Assembly: GCA_017483575.1 (NCBI GenBank) | Contig: JAFUWF010000001.1 | Span: forward strand, 1-64,000 | DNA length: 64,000 nt | DNA from: Bacteroidales bacterium | Lineage (GTDB): Bacteria > Bacteroidota > Bacteroidia > Bacteroidales > P3 | Direction of reading: 5' to 3' | In this document: piece by piece, positions 6,027-52,208 of the stretch | Position numbering within the stretch: the stretch's first letter is position 1 | How the letters are laid out: every line of letters starts with the position of its first letter | Program-made: the position numbers and the translations under genes | Notes under the pieces: generated by a model | The model's input: the letters and a program-made list of their open reading frames with translations, nothing else | What the model was told of the DNA's origin: nothing | The model's database searches: none

Positions 6027-7169
6027 TCACCTGCGGATAATCTGCGTGTTGCCGTTGGAATTGAGCAGCGTAGCCTTGACGGTATGGGAGCGGTCGCCGC
6101 GCACATAGTCCACATCCACCTCGTCGCCTGGCGAGAAGAGCGCCAGCTCCTCCATCATCTCGGCGAAGGTGTTGACCTCCTTTCCGGCCACACGGACAAT
6201 GATGTCGCCCTGGCGGATGCCCGCACGCTCGGCGGCGCAGTCGGCATTCACCTTGCCCACGTAGAGGCCCTTGAGGTCGCGGGCGCCGGTCTGGCGGGCC
6301 ACGTTGGCGTCGACCTCGGTGACCTGCACGCCCAGGTAGCCACGCTGCACATAGCCGTAGCGCTGCAGGTCGCCGCCCACCTTGATGGCAATATTGGAGG
6401 GAATGGCGAAGGAATAGCCGATATAGTTGCCGTTGCCGGAGGCTATGGCCGTCACGATGCCCACCAACTCTCCGCGGCCGTTCACCAACGCGCCGCCGGA
6501 GTTGCCGCTGTTGACGGCGGCATCGGTCTGGAGGAAGCTCTCCAACGGGGTCTCGTTGCTGCGGGGATTGTCGATGATGTGCATGTTGCGAGCTTTGGCG
6601 CTGATGATACCGGAGGTGACCGTCGACGTGAGGTTGAAGGGGTTGCCGATGGCCAGCACGGGCTCCCCTACCCTCACGGCGTCGCTGTTGCCGAAGGGGA
6701 TGTAGGTGAGGTTCGATGCCTCGATCTTGATGACGGCGAGGTCGGTGGCGGGGTCGTTGCCAACGAGGCGCGCCGGCAGCTCGCGGCGGTCGTTGAGCGT
6801 CACGGTGATGCGCTCGGCATCCTGCACCACGTGGTTGTTGGTGAGGATGTAGCCGTCGGAGGTGACGATGACGCCGCTTCCATACGCGTCGTAGACCTGG
6901 CGCTGCACGCCCTGCTGGATGATGAAACCGAAGAAGGACTGGTACAGCGGCGTCAGCTGGGAGATCTCGCACTTGATGTGCACCACGCCGTCTATCGTGG
7001 CGGCGGCCACGTCGGTGAAGTCGGTGAGGGTGAGCGACGGCGCGGCGGTCGGGCTCTGCACGGGGGCCGCGAGGGGCGAAGCCGACGGGCCGGATTCGGA
7101 GGGTTGTGCCGTGCAGCTCTGCAGGGCCAGCGAAAGAAGAACAAGGGTTGTGAGGGTTATTCTTTTCAT
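6027..7169 (-). CDS. HtrA/DegP-type S1C serine protease, lipoprotein form
   Basis: A protein of 380 residues when started at 7169; an ATG seven codons upstream would dilute the signal peptide. The lipobox ends LALQSC with Cys19, so an envelope-anchored protease is predicted. The trypsin-like triad is visible: His113 in ILTNNHVV, Asp143 in PATDLAVIK and Ser224 in SGNSGGALV. One PDZ domain (about 265-370, with RGYLGVQV and AGIRQGDIIVRV) follows. Having a single PDZ makes it DegS-like in architecture, whereas many Bacteroidota DegP proteins have two. The likely role is degradation of misfolded envelope proteins. A possible two-gene unit with the MATE exporter is inferred from the 23-bp gap. Confidence 0.92.
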   Translation of the reverse strand: MKRITLTTLVLLSLALQSCTAQPSESGPSASPLAAPVQSPTAAPSLTLTDFTDVAAATIDGVVHIKCEISQLTPLYQSFFGFIIQQGVQRQVYDAYGSGVIVTSDGYILTNNHVVQDAERITVTLNDRRELPARLVGNDPATDLAVIKIEASNLTYIPFGNSDAVRVGEPVLAIGNPFNLTSTVTSGIISAKARNMHIIDNPRSNETPLESFLQTDAAVNSGNSGGALVNGRGELVGIVTAIASGNGNYIGYSFAIPSNIAIKVGGDLQRYGYVQRGYLGVQVTEVDANVARQTGARDLKGLYVGKVNADCAAERAGIRQGDIIVRVAGKEVNTFAEMMEELALFSPGDEVDVDYVRGDRSHTVKATLLNSNGNTQIIRR

Positions 7170-7203
7170 ATCATTCAAAACTTTTATCATAAAAGAGAAC
7201 TAT

Positions 7204-7238
7204 AAAAATCGGTTTTTATTGTACACAAACCGATTTTT
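7204..7238 (-). terminator. Rho-independent terminator after the arc/porin run
   Basis: A perfect 12-bp stem, AAAAATCGGTTT with AAACCGATTTTT, around an 11-nt loop. It is A/T-flanked on both sides, so it can work in either direction. On the minus strand it ends the transcript coming from the porin-like gene before htrA. Confidence 0.65.
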
Positions 7239-7284
7239 AAGTTTTTTTGCACTTCCGTTCCACCCCCACCAGACCCCTACTAGA

Positions 7285-7411
7285 TTCGACCGTTCTCATA
7301 TAGTATACATATAGTATACATATACTTCTCATATAGTATTCATATACTGTATATAAGAACTATATGAGAAGTATATGTATACTATATGTATACTATATAA
7401 GAACAGTCGAA
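7285..7411. repeat. 127-bp modular palindrome, copy A
   Basis: TTCGACC, five 11-bp units, centre CTG, five inverted 11-bp units, then AGTCGAA. Every left unit has a variable hexamer followed by ATATA. In order the left hexamers are GTTCTC, GTATAC, GTATAC, CTTCTC and GTATTC. The right arm read in reverse complement gives GTTCTT, GTATAC, GTATAC, CTTCTC and GTTCTT. Total length is 127 bp, identical to the copies at 36025 and 49421. It sits 56 bp after the stop of the porin-like gene and 115 bp before htrA. Confidence 0.95.
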
Positions 7412-7467
7412 TAAGGTACCTATTTGACACCTATTTACACATATCGGAAAACGGTAATTGTACCGTT

Positions 7468-8787
7468 TCAGAAGTTGTATTTCACGAGGGCGCAGAGGCG
7501 GTGGCCGAGGACCTGGTGGAGGTTGTCGTTGTCGGGGACGGTGCCGTCCTGGAGGTCGAGGTCGCCGTAGGTGACGCCGGTCAGTTCATACTCCAGGCCG
7601 ATGTTGAAGGCCTTGGTGTTGAAGCTGATGGATGGGGCAAGGCGGTAGATGCTGTTGATGTTGTTGATGCCTTTTTTCATGTAGAGCTCAGGGCCGTAGC
7701 CGATGGAGTAGTCCTTGTTGGCGAGGCCGAGGTTTTTCTGGTAGCCGAGGAAGAGGTTGACGCGCCAGCGCGAGCCGTAGGAGAGGTTGAGGTAGGAGAC
7801 CGAGGCCTGCATGGGGATGTAGGCCATGTCGCCGTCGGCATTGACGGCCCAGGCGTATCCGCTGAGCATGTTGAGGTGGCCGAGGTTCTGTGCCAGGGTG
7901 CTGCGGAATTTCAGCGCAAAGGGGACATGGAGGGGTGTGTACTGGAGGTAGACGGTCGGCGAGAAGGAGTGGCAACGGCCTTCGTCGAGGTGGTTGTAGA
8001 GGGTGGCACCGGTCGTATAATCCACCACGGGAATCTCCCTGCGAACGAGCAGGTTGGTGTAGTCCATGCCCAGTTGGGCGTAGAGTTCCGGAGTGCGGTA
8101 GTGCAGGCCGACAAAGAGTTCGGGCACGAGGGAGCGGTTGGCGTAGGCGGTGCTTTCGCCGTCGGGGCCGGGGGAGGTGAACTGGTACTGCCACAGGGCG
8201 GCGGCGCTGAAGCCGAAGCCGTTGGGGTTCAGCGTGTAGCGTATCTGCGGTGTGCGGCTGTGGGGCCGGAAAGGGGCGCCGGCGGCCATGCCGAGGGCAT
8301 CGGGCATGATGCTGCCGCTGAGGGGATGCCAGTCCTGGCCGAGGAGGAGTTCGTGCTGGCCAAAGTTGTTCTTACGGCGGAGGGTGACGTAGGCCAGGCG
8401 CAGGCGCAGCACGGTGTTGCTGTTGCCGAAGCCGGCGAAGTCGCCTTCCACTTTGCCGCTGAGGTCGAAGCCCATGAATCGGGCCCCCTCGAGGGCAAGG
8501 CCGAAGCGGGTGCTGAGGGCCAGGAAGTGGGCTTCGGGGACGGCATTGCGGTCGAAGCGTTCGTCGTCGGCATTGTAGGTCCGGGCCTCGGATTCGGTCA
8601 TGTTCCAGTCCTCGTCGTAGGGTATCATCAGGTATTCGCCGCCGCAGACGGTCATCATGCGACGGGAGTCGACGTTGAGGTAGTTGCGGACAAAGCCGTA
8701 GGGTTTGATGCGCACTTTGTTGGTGTCCTGCGCCGTAGCGGCGAGGGCGGTTAGCAGAAGGGTTGCTAGCAGAAGGGTTTTCTTCAT
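7468..8787 (-). CDS. Outer-membrane beta-barrel (porin-like) protein
   Basis: A protein of 439 residues with a cleavable signal (MKKTLLLATLL...AATAQ) and a C-terminal Phe (LVKYNF), as expected for a barrel assembled by BAM. The body alternates hydrophobic and polar residues with many Tyr/Trp/Gly turns, for example LLLGQDWHPLSGSIMPDALG, which resembles DcaP-like porins of Bacteroidota. No catalytic motif is seen. The start at 8787 follows the DUF4838 stop by 22 bp, so the two are probably one transcript. The substrate is unknown. The next gene downstream is beyond a terminator hairpin and palindrome A. Confidence 0.8.
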   Translation of the reverse strand: MKKTLLLATLLLTALAATAQDTNKVRIKPYGFVRNYLNVDSRRMMTVCGGEYLMIPYDEDWNMTESEARTYNADDERFDRNAVPEAHFLALSTRFGLALEGARFMGFDLSGKVEGDFAGFGNSNTVLRLRLAYVTLRRKNNFGQHELLLGQDWHPLSGSIMPDALGMAAGAPFRPHSRTPQIRYTLNPNGFGFSAAALWQYQFTSPGPDGESTAYANRSLVPELFVGLHYRTPELYAQLGMDYTNLLVRREIPVVDYTTGATLYNHLDEGRCHSFSPTVYLQYTPLHVPFALKFRSTLAQNLGHLNMLSGYAWAVNADGDMAYIPMQASVSYLNLSYGSRWRVNLFLGYQKNLGLANKDYSIGYGPELYMKKGINNINSIYRLAPSISFNTKAFNIGLEYELTGVTYGDLDLQDGTVPDNDNLHQVLGHRLCALVKYNF

Positions 8788-8809
8788 AGTGGTTTGTCTG
8801 TGTTGTGTA

Positions 8810-11134
8810 TTATTTGATGATGATTTCGTCGGTGAATATCCATGGTTTCTGCCCTGAGGCGCGGTGCCAAGAGGGTATCTCGGGCAAGGGAACAGCCACG
8901 ACTCGGACGTAGCGGTACTTGTTGGGCTCACCGCCAATGGTGCACGCTGTTTCCGATGCGTAGGTGTATATATCCGGCGTGGCCAACACCTCGGGGTTCT
9001 CAATCACATCCTTTGGGCGCCACTCCCAACGTTCGCCATCGTCAGACAAGGCGAATTGCACCCACTGTGGGAGGAATATCCACGAGAGTGGGTAGAAGTA
9101 GAAGTCGATGCCGATATAGGTGATAGGCTGTGGCTCACCGAGGTCTATGACAGCGTCGAGGGTGTCGCCCCAGAAGCCGAGCCAGCGGTGGCGGTAGTCC
9201 ATGATGCCCACTTCGCCGTCGGCAAGGCCTGCCGTGTTGTAGGGGGCGGTGGCCGGACGGCGCAGGGTGACGGGCTTGCCGGGTGCAAGGTGTTCGTTGT
9301 AGGCTTTTTCCGCCCAGGAGCGCATATTGGAGGCATACTCGGCTGGCGAGCAGCCCATTTCCATCATCTGCGGCACACGGAAGTGCTGCAGCCGGGCCTC
9401 GAGCGAGTCGATTGCACCAAGCATAGCGTCCTTGTCGGGCTCGCCATGTTGCAGCTCCAGCCAGGCGAAATCGAGGGCCAGCTGGAAGAAGCGCAGGCGT
9501 TCCAGCACTGCGCTGTCACCTTTAGCGGCATCCCGGGCGTTGCCCATCCAGTCGTAGTATTTCAACATCAGGTCTTCCGACAGGTAGCCTTCCACGGCAT
9601 CGACAGGGTAGCCGTAGATGTTGAGTGCCTGGCCGCTCCGGATGAGGGCGGCGGTCATGGTGTCGATGATTTCCTTCACATAGCGGCCGGCCTCGCCGTA
9701 GTAGCCTTGGTAGAAGTCGTCCATGATGGAGTCGATATTGCAATAGGGGTTCCATAGGAGCTTGGAAATCATGTAGCAGCGGATGTCCATCCAGGAGGTG
9801 ACGTTCTGCGCGCCGGTGGCCTGTTCGAACATCATGCTGGCGCCGTTCTCCTTGAAGAACTGCAGGTTGGGCTGAAGAACATGGAGGTTCGGGAAGGGGT
9901 CCCAGAAGTTGCGGAACTGGACGACGTAGTCCCAGAGGTAGATTCCGGATGGGTTACACACTCCTCCGTCCGCCCTTCGAGCGTCCACCTCCCCTAACTT
10001 AGGGGAGGAGTTGATTAGCAAGGCCTCACTATTTTGCTGCTCCCCTAAGTTAGGGGAACTGGCAGCCGCTTGCGGCTGACTGAGGAGTGTGTTGCCCGAA
10101 CACAAGCGGCTCCAGTCCTCCATGTCCTTGCGGAAGGCGGGGTCGGTCTGGGGGATGGGGGCCTGGCGGCCGGACTCGATGGGGCAGAGCATGACGAGGA
10201 CGTTTTCATCGAGTTTGATATCGCTGGTCGGTGCCTTGCGGGTGTATTGGTAGGCGAGCGTGGAGATGGTCTTGTAGCGGAAGCGGCGGGCCACCTGGTT
10301 GACGAACCACAGCAGTGTGCCGCTCTGGCCGCCGTAGAGGCTGTCGAGGCGGCGACAGTCGGCGCACTCACAGGCGTTGTAGTTGTCGTTGGGCGAGACC
10401 GACCATATCCGCGCCTCGGGGCGGCGCGACATGGTGTCGGCCAGCCGCTTGCAGAGTTCTTTCAGCACAGCGGGGTTGCTCAGACAGAGCTGACCGTCGC
10501 GGCTGCGGCGACCATTGTTCAGCGAGTACCACTCGGGGTGCTCGTCGAAGTAGAGCGCTGGCGGAAGCTGCTTGCCGAACGTGTGCACATACATACCGAA
10601 CATCCGTTCGCGGTCGGCCTGCGTGTGCACATGGTGCCAGTCGGCATAGAGCTGGCTCTGGTTGGGGTAGTAGTAGGCCACCTCGCGGTACTCGAACGCC
10701 GGGTTCTCTACTAATTGAAAATTGAAAGTTGAAAATTGAAAATTATTGGAGAGGTCGGGGACAACCACGGCGTCGGGGGTATACATGCGGTAGCCGAGCT
10801 TTTCGAGGAAGGCGTAGACGGCGTAGATGGTGCCCTTCTCCCCTTTCCCGTAGAGCACCACGTCGCGACCGTTGCCGACGATGAAGTAGCCGTCGTCGCG
10901 CAGGCTGTCTATCTGCGGCCGGTACTTGGCCTTCATCTCCGGCGTCAGACCCACATAGATGGTGTGGCCCGTGTTCCGTCCGCCGAAGGTCGTCCTGCAG
11001 CCGCCCTTCTCCAGCCACTGCTGCAGCTGGCTGGCGGCGCGGCTCTCGGCGTAGGTGCTATAGATGCGTATCGGCTTCTGTGCCGAAGCCGATACGCAAA
11101 CCATAGTCATTAGAATAAGTGCCAGCCGCTTCAT
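8810..11134 (-). CDS. DUF4838 secreted protein with F5/8-type C-terminal domain
   Basis: A protein of 774 residues with a signal peptide (MKRLALILMTM...SASAQ). The N-terminal part (KGTIYAVYAFLEKLGYRMYTP) resembles the accessory domain that precedes GH20/GH67-like barrels. The middle is DUF4838. The C-terminal 150 residues (YIGIDFYFYPLSWIFLPQWV and following) look like a discoidin-type carbohydrate-binding module. A glycan-related role is likely but no reaction is established. The gene overlaps the transporter upstream by 4 nt (ATGA), implying translational coupling. It carries two in-frame repeat insertions: a 135-bp palindromic element at 9957-10091 (45 residues) and a heptamer array at 10713-10744. 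Confidence 0.8.
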   Translation of the reverse strand: MKRLALILMTMVCVSASAQKPIRIYSTYAESRAASQLQQWLEKGGCRTTFGGRNTGHTIYVGLTPEMKAKYRPQIDSLRDDGYFIVGNGRDVVLYGKGEKGTIYAVYAFLEKLGYRMYTPDAVVVPDLSNNFQFSTFNFQLVENPAFEYREVAYYYPNQSQLYADWHHVHTQADRERMFGMYVHTFGKQLPPALYFDEHPEWYSLNNGRRSRDGQLCLSNPAVLKELCKRLADTMSRRPEARIWSVSPNDNYNACECADCRRLDSLYGGQSGTLLWFVNQVARRFRYKTISTLAYQYTRKAPTSDIKLDENVLVMLCPIESGRQAPIPQTDPAFRKDMEDWSRLCSGNTLLSQPQAAASSPNLGEQQNSEALLINSSPKLGEVDARRADGGVCNPSGIYLWDYVVQFRNFWDPFPNLHVLQPNLQFFKENGASMMFEQATGAQNVTSWMDIRCYMISKLLWNPYCNIDSIMDDFYQGYYGEAGRYVKEIIDTMTAALIRSGQALNIYGYPVDAVEGYLSEDLMLKYYDWMGNARDAAKGDSAVLERLRFFQLALDFAWLELQHGEPDKDAMLGAIDSLEARLQHFRVPQMMEMGCSPAEYASNMRSWAEKAYNEHLAPGKPVTLRRPATAPYNTAGLADGEVGIMDYRHRWLGFWGDTLDAVIDLGEPQPITYIGIDFYFYPLSWIFLPQWVQFALSDDGERWEWRPKDVIENPEVLATPDIYTYASETACTIGGEPNKYRYVRVVAVPLPEIPSWHRASGQKPWIFTDEIIIK
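9957..10091. repeat. 135-bp palindromic element inserted in frame in the DUF4838 gene
   Basis: It has 10-bp terminal inverted repeats CACACTCCTC and GAGGAGTGTG. Internal palindromes are CTCCCCTAACTTAGGGGAG at 9989-10007, a second at 10041-10057, and AGCCGCT/TGCGGCT at 10064-10077. Its length is exactly 45 codons, so the reading frame is kept; the encoded peptide includes SSPNLGE and SSPKLGEVDARR. Shorter relatives lie in truA (35262) and the MtaD-like gene (58286). Confidence 0.85.
10713..10744. repeat. Heptamer array (AATTGAA type) inside the DUF4838 gene
   Basis: Four 7-bp units (AATTGAA, AATTGAA, AGTTGAA, AATTGAA) plus AATT. It is read in frame on the minus strand as FQFSTFNFQL, between the N-terminal domain and the DUF4838 body. 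The same unit type recurs at 36998-37076 and 61613-61647. Confidence 0.8.
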
Positions 11135-12328: not shown

Positions 12329-12418
12329 GTTATGAGTTATGAGTTATAAGTTATGAATTAAGAGTTAAGAGGTGCCGTTGAGCATCACTCCTAACTCTTA
12401 ACCCTTAACTCTTAAATG
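12329..12418. repeat. Inverted heptamer arrays between argF and the transporter gene
   Basis: Six units of the GTTATGA/GTTAAGA type (12329-12370), a 20-nt loop, then four inverted units of the CTAACTC/TTAACTC type (12391-12418). The array ends 3 nt before the argF stop codon at 12422 and occupies almost the whole 97-bp gap. It could form a long hairpin in the transcript. Confidence 0.9.
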
Positions 12419-14842: not shown

Positions 14843-14931
14843 CCTACCAAAAGCCTACCAACTACCTACCAACTCCCACAAAAATATAAGAACTGTGGGA
14901 GATGGTAGGGTGTTGGTAGGGTGTTGGTAGG
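14843..14931. repeat. Palindrome of 11-bp units, second sequence family
   Basis: The left arm has units CCTACCAAAAG, CCTACCAACTA and CCTACCAACTC, then CCACA (14843-14880). The right arm (14895-14931), read in reverse complement, has CCTACCAACAC twice, CCTACCATCTC and CCAC. The 14-nt centre contains ATATAAGAAC, a sequence also found as a unit core in the 127-bp palindromes. It lies 21 bp after the stop codon of the M16 gene, which is transcribed away from it on the minus strand. Confidence 0.85.
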
Positions 14932-33477: not shown

Positions 33478-33481
33478 GACA

Positions 33482-33891
33482 GTTAAGAGTTAAGAGTTAT
33501 GAGTTATGAGTTTTGGAGCTTTTCACGCATCGTCTTGACAATTGAACTAAGCATCTTCACAATCTCATCGCACTGTAAAACCATCCGTTCACCCTGCTCA
33601 GATGATATATATTCCGATGCAGCCAAAAGTTCATACCAATAACGTGACTCTTCAGCCTCCTTTAGAGAAATCGACATCTTAGCCACAAAATCGGCTGTCG
33701 ACTGTGCCCTTCTCGCCTCCCTTATATTGGCACCGATACTCGTGCTGCTTCGCACCAATTGCTTCGAAAGATTATACTCATGCCGTACCTCCGTAAGATA
33801 TTGGCAAATCCTTATCGACTCAACCGCAAAATCAAAACTCTTATTCTGAACCACACTATCTTTCATAACTCTTAACTCATAACTCTTAACT
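33482..33891. mobile_element. Four-helix-bundle gene bracketed by inverted heptamer arrays
   Basis: The left array has GTTAAGA twice and GTTATGA twice (33482-33509). The right array has CATAACT, CTTAACT, CATAACT, CTTAACT (33864-33891). They are inverted and enclose exactly one gene. The arrays supply the gene's stop (33504-33506) and start (33864-33866), and also the stop of prmA (33872-33874). The layout looks like a 410-bp insertion into the truA-prmA-topB operon. Mobility is inferred, not shown. Confidence 0.6.
33504..33866 (-). CDS. Four-helix bundle protein (23S rRNA IVS / Avd-like family)
   Basis: A protein of 120 residues. The family signature is visible: FDFAVESIRICQYL near the N-terminus, LSKQLVRSSTSIGANIREARRAQSTADFVAKMSISLKEAEESRYWYELL in the middle (a basic helix then an acidic helix) and a final helix. 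These proteins are encoded in intervening sequences of bacterial 23S rRNA genes and are related to Avd of diversity-generating retroelements, which binds nucleic acid and reverse transcriptase. No rRNA gene is near. The gene begins and ends inside heptamer arrays, suggesting a mobile cassette. The function here is unknown. Confidence 0.88.
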   Translation of the reverse strand: MKDSVVQNKSFDFAVESIRICQYLTEVRHEYNLSKQLVRSSTSIGANIREARRAQSTADFVAKMSISLKEAEESRYWYELLAASEYISSEQGERMVLQCDEIVKMLSSIVKTMREKLQNS

Positions 33892-34735
33892 GAATAGCGC
33901 TCCACCCCTCGCGGTTCTTCTTCCCTTTGAGCACCATACCCAGCTCGTTGGCGCGGGCGATGAGGGCACCCTCGTCGGCCTCGTAGAAGCCGCTGAGCAG
34001 CAGCACTCCCCCACCCTTCAGCACGCCCGCGTAGGCCTCCATGTCGCGCAACAGGATATTGCGGTTGATGTTGGCAATGATGATGTCGAAACTCTGGAGC
34101 GCCGGCGTCCCGCCGGCAACAGAACCAAGCAATCCCGCATCGCCCAACCGAAGGTCCAGCGGCACCCCGTTGGACTCGGCGTTCTCCTGCGCATTGCGGA
34201 AAGCCCACTCGTCCACATCGATACCCATCACATAGTCCGCCCCCCGCATCTTGGCCAGGATGCCCAGCACGGCGGTGCCACACCCCATGTCCAGCACCCG
34301 TCGACCCACCATGTCCAGCTCGGCCACGTAGGAGAGCATCATGTAGGTCGTCGGGTGGTGGGCGGTGCCGAAACTCATCTTCGGTTCTATAATCAACTCG
34401 TAATCAACGTCGTTGCGGTGCGGATGGAACGGTGCACGCACCCAGATGGTGGTACCGTTGTCGGCCTTCACCAGCACAGCCTCGTGCCCCTTCTCCCACT
34501 CGGCGTTCCAGTCGCGGTCCTCCATCTCCGCCACCGTGAACTTCAGCGGCAGCGGGAACGTCTCGACGGTGACATCGAGAAAATGGCGGTCGTATTGGTC
34601 CTCAGGCACATAGGCCTTCACGCCGTCGGCCGTTTCAACGAAACTTTCGTAGGGCCCTTCGGCCAGATTGGAGACGAGCATATCGCGGAAGAGTCCGGTG
34701 TCGTCGAGGGTGAATGTAACTTCTATGTATTTCAT
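33872..34735 (-). CDS. prmA: Ribosomal protein L11 methyltransferase
   Basis: A protein of 287 residues from MKYIEVTF (34735). The SAM-binding motif VLDMGCGTAVLGILA and the post-I IGIDVDEWA-like segment are present, together with ANINRNILL (NPPY-equivalent in PrmA). It trimethylates L11. The start overlaps the truA stop by 4 nt (ATGA). A 23-bp GC palindrome inserted in frame at 34096-34118 adds AGGTPAL after the second SAM strand. The C-terminal residues LRVMS and the stop codon come from the heptamer array that borders the four-helix gene, so the natural 3' end may have been replaced. Confidence 0.93.
   Translation of the reverse strand: MKYIEVTFTLDDTGLFRDMLVSNLAEGPYESFVETADGVKAYVPEDQYDRHFLDVTVETFPLPLKFTVAEMEDRDWNAEWEKGHEAVLVKADNGTTIWVRAPFHPHRNDVDYELIIEPKMSFGTAHHPTTYMMLSYVAELDMVGRRVLDMGCGTAVLGILAKMRGADYVMGIDVDEWAFRNAQENAESNGVPLDLRLGDAGLLGSVAGGTPALQSFDIIIANINRNILLRDMEAYAGVLKGGGVLLLSGFYEADEGALIARANELGMVLKGKKNREGWSAIQLRVMS
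34096..34118. repeat. 23-bp GC palindrome in frame in prmA
   Basis: The same element as in topB but in the opposite orientation relative to the coding strand, giving the peptide AGGTPAL. It keeps the frame despite being 23 bp, so the net insertion must include flanking bases. Confidence 0.85.
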
Positions 34736-35683: not shown

Positions 35684-35757
35684 TACCGCATATCAGAGTC
35701 GAACTGATGATCTTCTGCGTGAGAGGCAGATGTCCTGGACCACTAGACGAATGCGGC
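35684..35757 (-). tRNA. tRNA-Glu (anticodon CUC)
   Basis: A 74-nt cloverleaf on the minus strand. Acceptor GCCGCAT pairs with ATGCGGT, discriminator A. The anticodon stem TCTGC/GCAGA encloses loop CTCTCAC with anticodon CTC, and the T-arm carries TTCGACTC. CCA is not encoded. It reads GAG. A -7 box at 35791-35798 and a terminator at 35661-35679 make it a single-gene transcript. Confidence 0.93.
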
Positions 35758-36024: not shown

Positions 36025-36151
36025 TTCGACTGTTCTTATATAGTATACATATAGTATACATATACTTCTCATATAGTTCTTATATACAGTATATGAATAC
36101 TATATGAGAACTATATGTATACTATATGTATACTATATGAGAAGGGTCGAA
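36025..36151. repeat. 127-bp modular palindrome, copy B
   Basis: Same architecture as copy A with centre CAG. Left hexamers: GTTCTT, GTATAC, GTATAC, CTTCTC, GTTCTT. Right hexamers (reverse complement): CTTCTC, GTATAC, GTATAC, GTTCTC, GTATTC. The left arm is identical unit by unit to the right arm of copy A, so B is inverted relative to A. It lies 23 bp after the APH-RapZ stop. Confidence 0.95.
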
Positions 36152-36174: not shown

Positions 36175-37731
36175 TTAGGGCCGGTTGGCGGGGGGATCCT
36201 GTTCGCGGTGGCGGAGGACGACGGCGATGTCGGGGTAGGTGCTGCGGAGCCAGAGGGCGGTCTGTTCGGCGCAGTAGACGGAGCGGTGCTGGCCGCCGGT
36301 GCAGCCAAAGGAGACCTGCAGGGCGGTGAAACGGCGCTCGATGTACTTGTCGACGCTCTGGGCGACGAGGCGACGGACATTGTCCAGGAACTCGTGGACA
36401 GGAGGTTCTTTCTGAAGGAATTCGATGACGGGGCGGTCCTTGCCGGTGTAGGTCTTGTATTCGGGGTAGCGGCCGGGATTGGGGAGGGCGCGGCAGTCGA
36501 AGATGAATCCGCCGCCGTTGCCGGTGGGGTCGTCGGGGAGGCCCTGCTTGAAGCTGAAGCTTTGGACGGTGACGGTGAGCGGCGAATCGTTTGCCGTCGG
36601 CGAATTTGGCGAATTGTTCTTTTCGCTCAGTTCGCTCAGTTCGCCGACAATCCGGTGCAGGTGCGGAAGGTCGGCGAAGATCTCGGGGTGGTCCTCGGCG
36701 AGGCGACGGAGGTTCTGAAGGGCCAGGGGGATGGACTGGAGGAAGTACTCCTTGCGCTCGAAGATGCCGCGGTAGCCGTAGGCGCCGAGGGTCTGGAGGA
36801 TGCGCAGGAGGAGGTAGGCCCGAAAGAGGTGGAGCCACTGTCGGCGCTCCTCGCCCTTGATGCCGCGGACGCGGAGGTAGTGGTCCAGCAGTTCGTGGCG
36901 GATGGGTTCGGGGAGGTTGGACTTGGCGCTGTAGAGGATGGAGGCCACATCGTACTGCGCGGCCCCGCGGCGGGCGCTTTGGAAGTCGATGTAAAATAAT
37001 TGAGAATTGAGAATTGAGAATTGAGAATTATCGGGGTGCGGCAGCGAATTTTCAATTTTCAATTTTCCATTTTCAATTACCATGATGTTGCGGGTCTGGA
37101 AGTCGCGGTAGAGGAGGTAGCGGGTGTCGGCCTGCAGGAGCGTGTCTGCCAGACGGTTGAAGTCGTCCTCGAGGAGCTGCTCGTCGAAGGGGACGTGGGC
37201 GAGCTTGAGGTAGTGGTACTTGAAGTAGTTGAGGTCCCAGAGGATGGACTGGCGGTCGAAGTCGGCGCGGGGATAGGACCAGGAGAAGTCGAAGTCGGCG
37301 CCGGCCTGCTGAATGTCGGCGAGGTCGGCGAGGGCCTGCTTGTAGAGGGCGAGCATCTCGGCGTCGAATCCCCCACCCTGCCGTTGTTTCTCGTGCAGAA
37401 GCCCGTAGAGCGAGAGGTCGCCGAGGTCCTGCTGGAGGTAGCAGCGCTCGTCGGGGGCGACGGCGTAGAGCTCTGGGACACAGATGCCTTTGGCACGGAG
37501 GTGACGGTCGAGGGCGAAGAAGGCGCGGTTCTCGCGGAGGTCGTCGCCGACGGTGCCGATGGCGGACAGGCACGAGGTATGAGGTATAGGGTCGGAATGC
37601 TGACCTCCGACCTCCGACTGCCGACCTATCAGCCGGTAGTAACGACGCGAAGAGCCCTGGGCACCGATGGAGAGTATCTCGGTGCAGGGTTCGCCCGCCC
37701 ACTGCTGGAAGAGCTTCTTGAGGCGTTCCAT
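36175..37731 (-). CDS. Sugar kinase-like APH domain fused to RapZ C-terminal domain
   Basis: A protein of 518 residues. Residues 1-345 are an aminoglycoside-phosphotransferase fold: the N-lobe GSSRRYYRL and GENRAFF-like region, catalytic loop YLLYRDFQTRNIMV and metal loop YIDFQSARRG. This is closest in layout to AmgK-type cell-wall sugar kinases. Residues 395-510 resemble the C-terminal domain of RapZ (VSFGCTGGQHRSVYCAE, with a phosphate-binding loop). The pairing suggests amino-sugar sensing or salvage for envelope synthesis, which is inferred. Three in-frame repeat insertions are present (37574-37630, 36998-37076, 36599-36648). The last lies between the two domains and the second right beside the catalytic loop. 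The gene is 4 bp after bactofilin. Confidence 0.85.
   Translation of the reverse strand: MERLKKLFQQWAGEPCTEILSIGAQGSSRRYYRLIGRQSEVGGQHSDPIPHTSCLSAIGTVGDDLRENRAFFALDRHLRAKGICVPELYAVAPDERCYLQQDLGDLSLYGLLHEKQRQGGGFDAEMLALYKQALADLADIQQAGADFDFSWSYPRADFDRQSILWDLNYFKYHYLKLAHVPFDEQLLEDDFNRLADTLLQADTRYLLYRDFQTRNIMVIENGKLKIENSLPHPDNSQFSILNSQLFYIDFQSARRGAAQYDVASILYSAKSNLPEPIRHELLDHYLRVRGIKGEERRQWLHLFRAYLLLRILQTLGAYGYRGIFERKEYFLQSIPLALQNLRRLAEDHPEIFADLPHLHRIVGELSELSEKNNSPNSPTANDSPLTVTVQSFSFKQGLPDDPTGNGGGFIFDCRALPNPGRYPEYKTYTGKDRPVIEFLQKEPPVHEFLDNVRRLVAQSVDKYIERRFTALQVSFGCTGGQHRSVYCAEQTALWLRSTYPDIAVVLRHREQDPPANRP
36599..36648. repeat. Inverted nonamer repeat in the APH-RapZ linker
   Basis: Two GGCGAATT(T/G) units face three TTCGCTCAG/TTCGCCGAC units. 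With a 9-bp period the peptide repeats as SEL-SEL and NSP-NSP. It forms a flexible linker between the kinase and RapZ domains. Confidence 0.7.
36998..37076. repeat. Inverted heptamer arrays (AATTGAG/TTTTCAA) in frame beside the kinase catalytic loop
   Basis: Four AATTGAG units (36998-37025), a 23-nt loop, then four TTTTCAA-type units (37049-37076). On the minus strand the insert is read as ENGKLKIENSLPHPDNSQFS and following, between the catalytic loop (RNIMV) and the metal-binding loop (YIDFQ). Confidence 0.9.
37574..37630. repeat. Inverted heptamer arrays (ACCTCCG type) in frame near the kinase N-terminus
   Basis: Left units GAGGTAT, GAGGTAT, AGGGTCG; right units ACCTCCG, ACCTCCG, ACTGCCG, ACCTATC. 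Encodes RQSEVGGQHSDPIPHTS after the glycine-rich strand. Same family as 17041-17120. Confidence 0.85.
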
Positions 37732-48604: not shown

Positions 48605-49258
48605 TCACTCGCCGTGGTCCTTGCTCCACTGCTCGGGGTTGAGGCGCCATTTGGCCAGGCTCTCCATGGCCTCGGGGCGGATGTACTCGCGCTCCCTGGC
48701 AACGTCGATCAACGTATCGTAGTCCGTCAGCGTAAACAGCTCCACATCCTCGTTCTTGAAGTTGTCCGCAGCCACCTGCAGGCCATAGCTGAAGATGGCC
48801 ACCATGCCTTTGACCACGCAACCCTTCTCGCGCAGGGCCTTCACGGCGATGAGCGAACTCTTGCCCGTGGACACGAGGTCCTCGATCACGACAACGGACT
48901 GACCCTCATGGATCTCGCCCTCGATCTGGTTCGTCAGGCCGTGGCTCTTCTGCTCCGAACGCACATAGACGAAGGGCTTGCCCAGCTCCTGGGCCACCAG
49001 GGCGCCCTGGGCTATGCCGCCCGTGGCAACACCGGCAATGACATCCACATCGCCCCACGTGTCGCTCACTATCTCCGAGAAACGCTGGCGGATGAAAGTT
49101 CTGATCTCCGGATACGACAACGTGACCCGGTTATCACAATAAATAGGTGATTTTCGGCCCGAGGCCCAGGTGAAAGGATGCTCCTCATTGAGCTTTACCG
49201 CTTTCACAGTCAACAGGAATTCGGCCGTCTGTGCGGCCATGTCTTTGTTAGTAATCAT
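48605..49258 (-). CDS. pyrE: Orotate phosphoribosyltransferase
   Basis: A protein of 217 residues. The PRPP loop is VVVIEDLVSTGKSSL, with GVATGGIAQGALVA and RSEQKSHGL. It makes orotidine 5'-monophosphate in pyrimidine synthesis. The start at 49258 is only 5 nt beyond the -7 box, so translation may begin leaderless, or at MAAQTAEF six codons in (49240). It heads the long minus-strand operon-like run to 36175. Downstream genes are spaced 3-51 bp or overlap. Confidence 0.95.
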   Translation of the reverse strand: MITNKDMAAQTAEFLLTVKAVKLNEEHPFTWASGRKSPIYCDNRVTLSYPEIRTFIRQRFSEIVSDTWGDVDVIAGVATGGIAQGALVAQELGKPFVYVRSEQKSHGLTNQIEGEIHEGQSVVVIEDLVSTGKSSLIAVKALREKGCVVKGMVAIFSYGLQVAADNFKNEDVELFTLTDYDTLIDVAREREYIRPEAMESLAKWRLNPEQWSKDHGE

Positions 49259-49262
49259 GCTG

Positions 49263-49270
49263 CAAAAATA
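49263..49270 (-). promoter_or_regulatory. -7 promoter box of pyrE
   Basis: The minus strand reads TATTTTTG followed by CAGCATG. It is the only good -7 box upstream of the long pyrE-to-36175 run. Confidence 0.55.
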
Positions 49271-49420
49271 CACATTTTTTTTAATATAATAAAAAAAACT
49301 TTTCAACCCCTGTTCCCAACCCCGTTTTTTCGACTCGATTTTTATCGTATTTCAGCAACAACGAAACCCTCTTCAGCCCCGACTTCGGAGCCCGAAAACA
49401 GGGGTCAAACAGGCCCTGAA

Positions 49421-49547
49421 TTCGACCGTTCTTATATAGTATACATATAGTATTCATATACTTCTCATATAGTATTCATATACAGTATATAAGAAGTATA
49501 TGAGAAGTATATGAATACTATATGTATACTATATAAGAACAGTCGAA
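49421..49547. repeat. 127-bp modular palindrome, copy C
   Basis: Centre CAG. Left hexamers GTTCTT, GTATAC, GTATTC, CTTCTC, GTATTC; right hexamers (reverse complement) GTTCTT, GTATAC, GTATTC, CTTCTC, CTTCTT. The third unit differs from copies A and B (GTATTC instead of GTATAC) in both arms. It lies between two divergent promoters, so it cannot be a simple terminator. Confidence 0.95.
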
Positions 49548-49748: not shown

Positions 49749-49790
49749 TAGGTCGATTTGAAAACGAAATACAAACTAAAATTATTCAAT

Positions 49791-52208
<2,418 letters not shown>

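Follow-up and report, generated by a model that had tools for sequence, protein, structure and literature searches.

What kind of element is a 127-bp palindrome whose arms are built from regular 11-bp units, and why should a bacterial chromosome carry it? This question is raised by positions 7285-7411 of contig JAFUWF010000001.1 in the Bacteroidales bacterium assembly GCA_017483575.1, of which we analyzed positions 1 to 64,000 (the window). The palindrome is one of about 75 in its genome of origin, mostly intergenic, all built in 11-bp steps, several kb apart, largely homogenised in sequence and partly fixed in place between sister species. From the spacing and place data we suggest, with a probability of roughly 40%, that the set forms genome-wide putative docking arrays, on which a DNA-binding protein would assemble cooperatively in steps of 11 bp. 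The element, its flanks and its two other window copies are the following:

7285..7411, + strand: 127-bp phased palindrome, copy 1; five units of ATATA plus 6 nt, the centre CTG, five units of TATAT plus 6 nt, and TTCGAC/GTCGAA ends
7241..7284, + strand: outer flank with C-rich degenerate units and weaker 11-bp phasing (lag-11 identity 0.41)
7412..7455, + strand: outer flank on the more conserved side, TAA followed by ACCTNTTTGACCCC-like units in 11-bp phase (lag-11 identity 0.42)
36025..36151, - strand: 127-bp phased palindrome, copy 2, 98% identical to copy 1
49421..49547, + strand: 127-bp phased palindrome, copy 3, 96% identical to copy 1

In copy 1 the ends TTCGAC and GTCGAA occupy 7285-7290 and 7406-7411, with the centre CTG at 7347-7349. 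ATATA starts at 7298, 7309, 7320, 7331 and 7342 in the left arm and TATAT at 7350, 7361, 7372, 7383 and 7394 in the right arm; the build and the overall coordinates are as given in an earlier note on this DNA. The arms are 92% complementary over 64 nt, and the single-stranded DNA folds at -44.8 kcal/mol, against a mean of -10.7 for 200 shuffles (z -14.4). All three window copies measure exactly 127 bp, in agreement with the same note. Scanning the window for 11-bp-phased palindromes recovered four, and none were recovered in three block-shuffled windows. The DNA helix has about 10.5 bp per turn. The earlier argument that the units face one side of the helix is plausible but inexact, since units of 11.0 bp drift against that pitch.

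The genome of origin (G000; other genomes, loci and contigs are cited by our own handles where needed) is a draft of 1,958,866 bases in 30 contigs, 78% complete. Among its copies with at least 44 bp of flank, the 11-bp phase runs beyond the bounds of the element, with a lag-11 identity of 0.41 upstream and 0.42 downstream (the next-best lag reaching at most 0.35-0.36) and of 0.28 at 150-200 bp distance. The TTCGAC/GTCGAA bounds are mutually inverted, as the terminal repeats of a miniature inverted-repeat transposable element (MITE) would be; no target-site duplication is recognisable, because the flanks are themselves conserved, phased and element-like. An alignment of 40 copies shows near invariant inner units, a variable left end (positions 1-13) and an almost fixed right end, GTCGAATAA. 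Such one-ended conservation is also seen in the related genome G029, not in G066 or G078, and only outside the palindrome in G077, considering that copies were oriented blindly by agreement, which can itself add some end asymmetry.

A first DNA search of G000 gave at least 40 copies. A right-end pattern (up to 3 mismatches) had 77 matches, some of them representing both ends of one copy, and a covariance model built from 23 copies (R1) had 146 matches on both strands among the best 150 of 435 candidates. Merging the pattern, model and partial-arm hits by hand left about 75 places. By model span, 56 copies have 127 bp, 12 about 116 bp and one 105 bp; the other places are three remnants (53, 54 and 70 bp), two copies cut by a contig end and one partial arm. 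The expectation of many copies with unit-level variation was therefore borne out, while that of a constant 127-bp length was not: it holds for 56 of the approximately 75 places only, and the number of units varies. Length changes by whole 11-bp units. Neither of the outcomes that had been named as refutation, an irregular unit length or a presence in three places only, was observed, since the step stays at 11 bp while the total length varies. Identity between copies is 94.6% within G000, 97.8% within its relative Bacteroidales bacterium UBA3684 (DFIZ01; G007) and 82.9% between the two, computed on 94 aligned nt for 100-150 sampled pairs (66 usable copies in G000 and 24 in G007).

According to the first gene calls, made by our own scoring of open reading frames (ORFs) rather than by a trained gene finder and excluding ORFs shorter than 40-60 aa, three of 40 copies overlap a called ORF and the rest are intergenic; for copy 1 the overlap is an antisense frame that starts inside the element. 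Several G000 contigs end in or near a copy, and the places C9:118562 and C29:46826 may be one copy split across contigs. In the public G007 assembly, N gaps lie inside palindromes (e.g. L162, L167 and L172) and many contigs begin or end in one. Palindromes of this kind disturb assemblies, with contig ends and N gaps falling inside them, and copy counts from drafts are for this reason probably too low.

The distribution along the genome is far from random. The 51 within-contig gaps of G000 have a mean of 21.1 kb, with a standard deviation of 9.0, a coefficient of variation (CV) of 0.43, a minimum of 7.9 kb and a maximum of 45 kb. Uniform placement gives a CV of 0.98 and a minimum of about 370 bp, and none of 5000 runs reached the observed CV or minimum; in 3000 runs each, with contig-end copies kept or dropped, placement on discrete random sites about 2.5 kb apart never matched G000 either. 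The copies are also more regular than a pure 7.8-kb exclusion would leave them (0 of 600 runs with every contig included; P 0.015 once contig C26 is left out). For G078, 73 listed copies define 40 gaps with a CV of 0.56 and a minimum of 7.9 kb (0 of 2000 runs against uniform placement; P 0.03 against a 5-kb exclusion). In G029, 99 listed copies define 83 gaps with a minimum of 3.3 kb and a CV of 0.70 (P 0.0005 against uniform placement), and gaps under 5 kb make up 3.6%, against 24% expected (0 of 2000 runs); a 3-kb exclusion still predicts more of them than G029 shows (P 0.007). The copy lists of G029 and G078 come from the best 150 candidates and are minimum counts, and some contig sizes in the simulations were approximated. 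Neighbour exclusion is thus present in all three species tested, and regularity beyond exclusion in G000 only.

Many of the places are shared with the sister species. We compared the genes near the 75 G000 loci with those near 64 G007 loci by reciprocal best hits; the G007 set was drawn from 72 stretches, 13 of which were not named UBA3684 and were left out, and a few of its loci represent the same place twice. Among 78 gene pairs, 20 flank an element in both genomes, 15 in G000 only, none in G007 only and 43 in neither (Fisher P 1.6e-9). The fairer test starts from the testable element-flanking genes of G007, since both gene sets are centred on elements: all 20 flank an element in G000 too, 19 of them on the same side. 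Given a flanking share of 136/306 in the G000 set, we estimate P at about 9e-8 by genes and 2e-6 for about 16 loci. Of the 15 genes flanking an element only in G000, six have it in an N gap of the G007 assembly, seven are without one there and two are undecidable; the resulting counts for the 35 genes (26 present, 7 absent, 2 unclear) overstate conservation because all stretches were fetched for the element.

Where intergenic regions could be aligned (L073/L162, L028/L167 and L025/L177), the element is at the same spot in the version proper to each species, with the N gaps of G007 inside it. At the L081/L131 adjacency, G000 has an element and G007 a gap of 1 bp. Orthologous G000 and G007 copies resemble each other somewhat more than other copies do (mean rank fraction 0.21, range 0.00-0.68, for the 8 of 19 locus pairs that were usable). 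We read this pattern, as far as the sequences can tell, as probable inheritance in place with incomplete homogenisation.

The search of related assemblies that the earlier note had proposed retrieved palindromes of the same build in several species of the genus, with different unit sequences. A first search matched four of 61 genomes, G000 and G007 strongly and two weakly. With R1, 13 of 59 genus genomes matched, five of them with at least 50 matches (both strands, best 59 scored); when the best 150 candidates were scored, G025 had 54 matches and G078 had 143. A blind palindrome scan returned CATATAGTATA as the G000 unit. Palindromes phased at 11 bp are made of other units elsewhere: CGTTCTTATAT in G066 and G078, ATGTACAGTAT in G077, ATATGTGCTAT in G026, TATACTATATT in G061 and CATACAGTAGC in G079, and arbitrary contig-start stretches gave phased units GATTGTTCTTC in G029 and TAGTATTACGG in G012. 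Lag 11 is the strongest in each of these genomes (G000, G012, G026, G029, G061, G066 and G077-G079); two palindromes of a different kind show other lags (G025 L202 and G002 L217). Some loci fetched with R1 had no phased palindrome at the threshold used, namely those of G014 and G070, one of the two G069 loci and three of the four G025 loci. Families are near uniform in G000, G007, G066 and G077, fair in uniformity in G029 and mixed in G078, and in some species the arms are layered, with outer units differing from inner ones (G079 L188 and some G078 loci).

In G029, all 20 further loci fetched for the unit were phased. We also observed at G029 L335-L354 that the palindrome centre (about 5 nt) varies among many copies, with the arms much better conserved. 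A two-unit G029 pattern had 582 matches in G029, 36 in G001, 10 in G012 and at most 6 in five others (8 of 59 genomes), and its reversed control had no matches in the 59 genomes. Blind scans of eight contig-start stretches from five genus genomes were positive for G029 and G012 and negative for G002, G016 and G021. Nothing was found in 313 kb from another 20 genomes of the genus, each represented by a single stretch (several shorter than 7 kb), or in 284 kb from 17 genomes belonging to other families, covered by 20 stretches of which some were shorter than 2 kb. One negative stretch does not exclude a low-copy carrier, since G001, G004 and G080 are among the negatives and yet contain a few units according to the G029 pattern. 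Over the order, R1 matched two of 393 genomes, G000 and one with a single weak place (best 8 candidates per genome); this search could miss other unit types, because R1 is biased to the G000 sequence and only 8 candidates per genome were scored. Taking the blind scans and pattern searches together, the build is patchy in the genus and its letters differ by species.

No preference for one kind of gene gap was evident in G000. Among the first copies with genes on both sides (n = 38), 14 are in divergent, 9 in convergent and 15 in tandem gaps, and a scan around copy 1 (7150-7520) found no terminator-like site, which agrees with the earlier view that placement is mixed and that a simple terminator is insufficient. 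The larger set (n = 65) has 33 tandem, 22 divergent and 10 convergent gaps, and does not differ significantly from the remaining gaps of 150 bp or more (91, 28 and 18; P 0.08). A strict gene-end or promoter role is thus unsupported in G000 by its mixed orientations; G078 leans convergent.

Candidate partners were also considered. A RAYT/Y1 protein is rejected because PF01797 does not co-occur with the element: the family has 3 matches in G000 and is present in 40 of 59 genus genomes, many without an element detected by R1 or the G029 pattern, and is absent from the carriers G029 (97% complete), G066 (89%), G026 (81%), G061 (85%) and G079 (82%). A common flanking gene is rejected as well: clustering of the genes adjacent to elements in 12 genomes yielded no group larger than 5 members, these coming from 3 genomes. 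A plasmid or phage origin found no match in phage or plasmid records, and viral contigs gave no exact match to one end pattern.

The usual interpretation of dispersed palindromic repeats is that they are selfish DNA or terminators. We favour docking arrays because the step is kept as the letters change, places are inherited between sisters and the G000 spacing goes beyond exclusion. Nucleoprotein blocks, about one per 20 kb, would organise or tether the chromosome by loop anchoring, membrane tethering or segregation; the protein and the unit sequence would evolve together, gene conversion carrying each new version of the unit from one fixed site to others, with the result that letters change at an unchanged step and in unchanged places. 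It is from the spacing that we infer a possible role in chromosome organisation. More tentatively, the palindromes could represent a new class of chromosome-organising element, with evenly placed palindromic docking arrays of fixed 11-bp step whose recognition sequence turns over with a putative partner protein, many places being kept between sisters: a bacterial parallel to the evolution of centromere satellites, fast and spread over many sites. If this is true, the layered arms, together with a GC-rich relic at window position 14843, would record successive generations of units.

Several results weigh against docking arrays. Many other members of the genus have no phased palindrome in the stretches examined, and consequently the element is not essential to the genus. 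Shared places are not significant between G000 and G078 (6 genes flanking in both, 5 and 5 in one only and 11 in neither; P 0.26) or between G000 and G029 (7, 1, 2 and 3; P 0.22), even with 7 of 9 testable genes shared in the latter pair, all on the same side; the G007-G078 (P 1.0), G007-G029 (P 0.22) and G078-G029 (P 1.0) comparisons gave the same outcome, each of these tests at larger distance having 9 to 27 gene pairs. Neither PF01797 co-occurrence nor flanking-gene clusters revealed a partner protein. The arms of G000 copies show no covariation above shuffles, save one column pair (24 A-U, 11 U-A), and for that reason we claim no selection on the hairpin. G078 is convergent-rich against its other long gaps (16 tandem, 7 divergent and 16 convergent, n = 39; P 0.0004), and in the pooled 12 genomes tandem gaps are underused (76 tandem, 46 divergent and 39 convergent; P 0.003). 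The spacing of G078 fits a 7.8-kb exclusion (P 0.17), with no regularity beyond it, and the CV of G029 fits a 3-kb exclusion (P 0.07), a single G029 contig with 12 listed copies not being regular (CV 0.81, P 0.40). Finally, the 213-kb contig C26 of G000 has one copy against 8 expected (P 0.003); it could be a terminus region, another replicon or a binning error.

The main rival is a non-autonomous mobile palindrome, REPIN- or MITE-like, with its transposase elsewhere and the bound transposase blocking nearby insertion (target immunity), which we regard as a possible though doubtful explanation. It would account for the high copy number, the near identity within a genome and the patchiness in the genus, and target immunity predicts the several-kb exclusion seen in three species, which alone nearly fits two of them. 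The better conserved end in G000 and G029, the filled L081/L131 adjacency and the lack of significant place sharing with more distant species also agree with mobility. Against it, the sole transposase family tested, Y1/RAYT, is missing from G029 with its at least 99 copies and from G066, and is present in many genomes in which neither R1 nor the G029 pattern detected an element; target-site duplications are not recognisable beside the element-like flanks; neither phage and plasmid records nor, for the exact end pattern, viral contigs match; and a change of sequence at kept places requires homogenisation here too. Such homogenisation is what a neutral or selfish conversion drive would supply by itself, if an SbcCD-type nuclease cleaves the hairpins and repair of the break uses another copy as template, with no host function. 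The very stable hairpin, the homogenised sequence at kept places and the unit number shifting by 11 bp are in line with this drive, and unequal ends could mark a conversion tract; it seems unlikely to be the whole explanation, as alone it accounts for neither the exclusion distance nor the survival of the 11-bp step through sequence change.

A role at the RNA level, in which long hairpins in transcripts would terminate transcription, be cut by RNase III or stabilise mRNA, appears very improbable to us. The near-perfect stem of about 60 bp and the convergent excess of G078 (16/39) are what it would lead one to expect, and the 11-bp step is close to the pitch of A-form RNA; the gaps in G000 are mixed, however, there is no terminator-like site around copy 1, the Rfam match of the window is a tRNA only, the family shows no covariation, and even spacing is not expected from such a device. 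The data do not support a RAYT-type REPIN, which leaves two readings, docking arrays whose protein co-evolves with them and a mobile palindrome showing target immunity; gene conversion would assist either one. Should the copies be docking sites, they belong to a fast-evolving chromosome-organising system in a Bacteroidales genus, with a protein-site co-evolution that is testable across species. Should they instead be mobile, they form a population of repeats whose members keep several kb away from each other.

The remaining features of the window are the neighbours of the three copies and a further phased palindrome:

6027..7190, - strand: serine-protease-like reading frame, presumably DegP-like, with its 5' side toward copy 1
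7468..9003, - strand: porin-like protein (name from the earlier note), 3' side toward copy 1
14843..14931, strand not assigned: GC-rich 11-bp-phased palindrome with CCTACCAACTA-type units and a lone ATATAAGAAC at its centre, 7.5 kb from copy 1
35684..35757, - strand: tRNA (Rfam match), on the other side of copy 2
36175..37731, - strand: APH-RapZ protein (name from the earlier note), 3' side toward copy 2
48605..49306, - strand: gene that we take to be orotate phosphoribosyltransferase-like, 5' side toward copy 3
49758..52208, + strand: gene assumed to be membrane pyrophosphatase-like, 5' side toward copy 3

The palindrome at 14843-14931 is possibly a decayed element, with an older outer layer left and the AT-rich core lost. 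The tRNA was the only Rfam match above the gathering score in the whole window. A short palindromic sequence, CTCCCCTAAGTTAGGGG, is found at 9985-10062 and also just upstream of an element remnant on G000 contig C2 (L069, about 7.5 kb), and is possibly another dispersed family. Runs of short repeats like TTAAGAGTTA/AACTCTTAACTC are present at 33480-33892 and 12344-12415, and a similar run lies beside the element in G007 locus L046.

In the titles and abstract openings examined from the open-licence literature, we found no element of this build. As they are described in the parts of the publications available to us, REPIN, ERIC, ParR-parC, Noc sites and PINSR each share one trait with it and none matches. 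The PINSR repeats of Prevotella intermedia are intergenic, group-specific and 188 bp long, with 177 copies in one strain and 184 in another, some three quarters of them in shared places (PMC4755523). We rejected an identity with PINSR, since it is said to lack terminal inverted repeats and the accessible text describes no 11-bp units (PMC4755523). According to the same kind of partial sources, REPINs are dispersed extragenic inverted repeats, hairpin-capable and in many copies per genome, composed of two inverted REPs around a spacer and tied to RAYT (PMC3116915), and their populations reportedly last for millions of years (PMC8049555). Our element is likewise inverted, predicted to form a hairpin, dispersed and multi-copy; unlike REPINs, its arms are four to five phased 11-bp units, PF01797 is absent in G029 and G066, and copies lie several kb apart. 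ERIC is an imperfect palindrome as well. It is described, also as RU-1, as a 127-bp repeat unit in many intergenic regions of enterobacteria (PMC2759123). By description only, it differs in that no 11-bp units are reported in the portion seen and in that our element varies in length by 11 bp and by species; the shared 127 bp therefore looks accidental. In Bacillus subtilis, Noc-binding sites are specific protein-binding sequences of 16 bp scattered round the chromosome (PMC4331003, PMC8429893, as far as their accessible text goes); the copies of our element are scattered in the same way, as phased arrays instead of 16-bp sites. The parC centromere of plasmid R1, bound by ParR, has ten 11-bp direct repeats flanking a promoter, according to the available part of PMC9426499. 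Genes other than parM and parR adjoin the three window copies. Each arm of the palindrome is, like parC, a run of direct 11-bp repeats; unlike parC, two such runs face each other, and they do so about 75 times in a draft chromosome.
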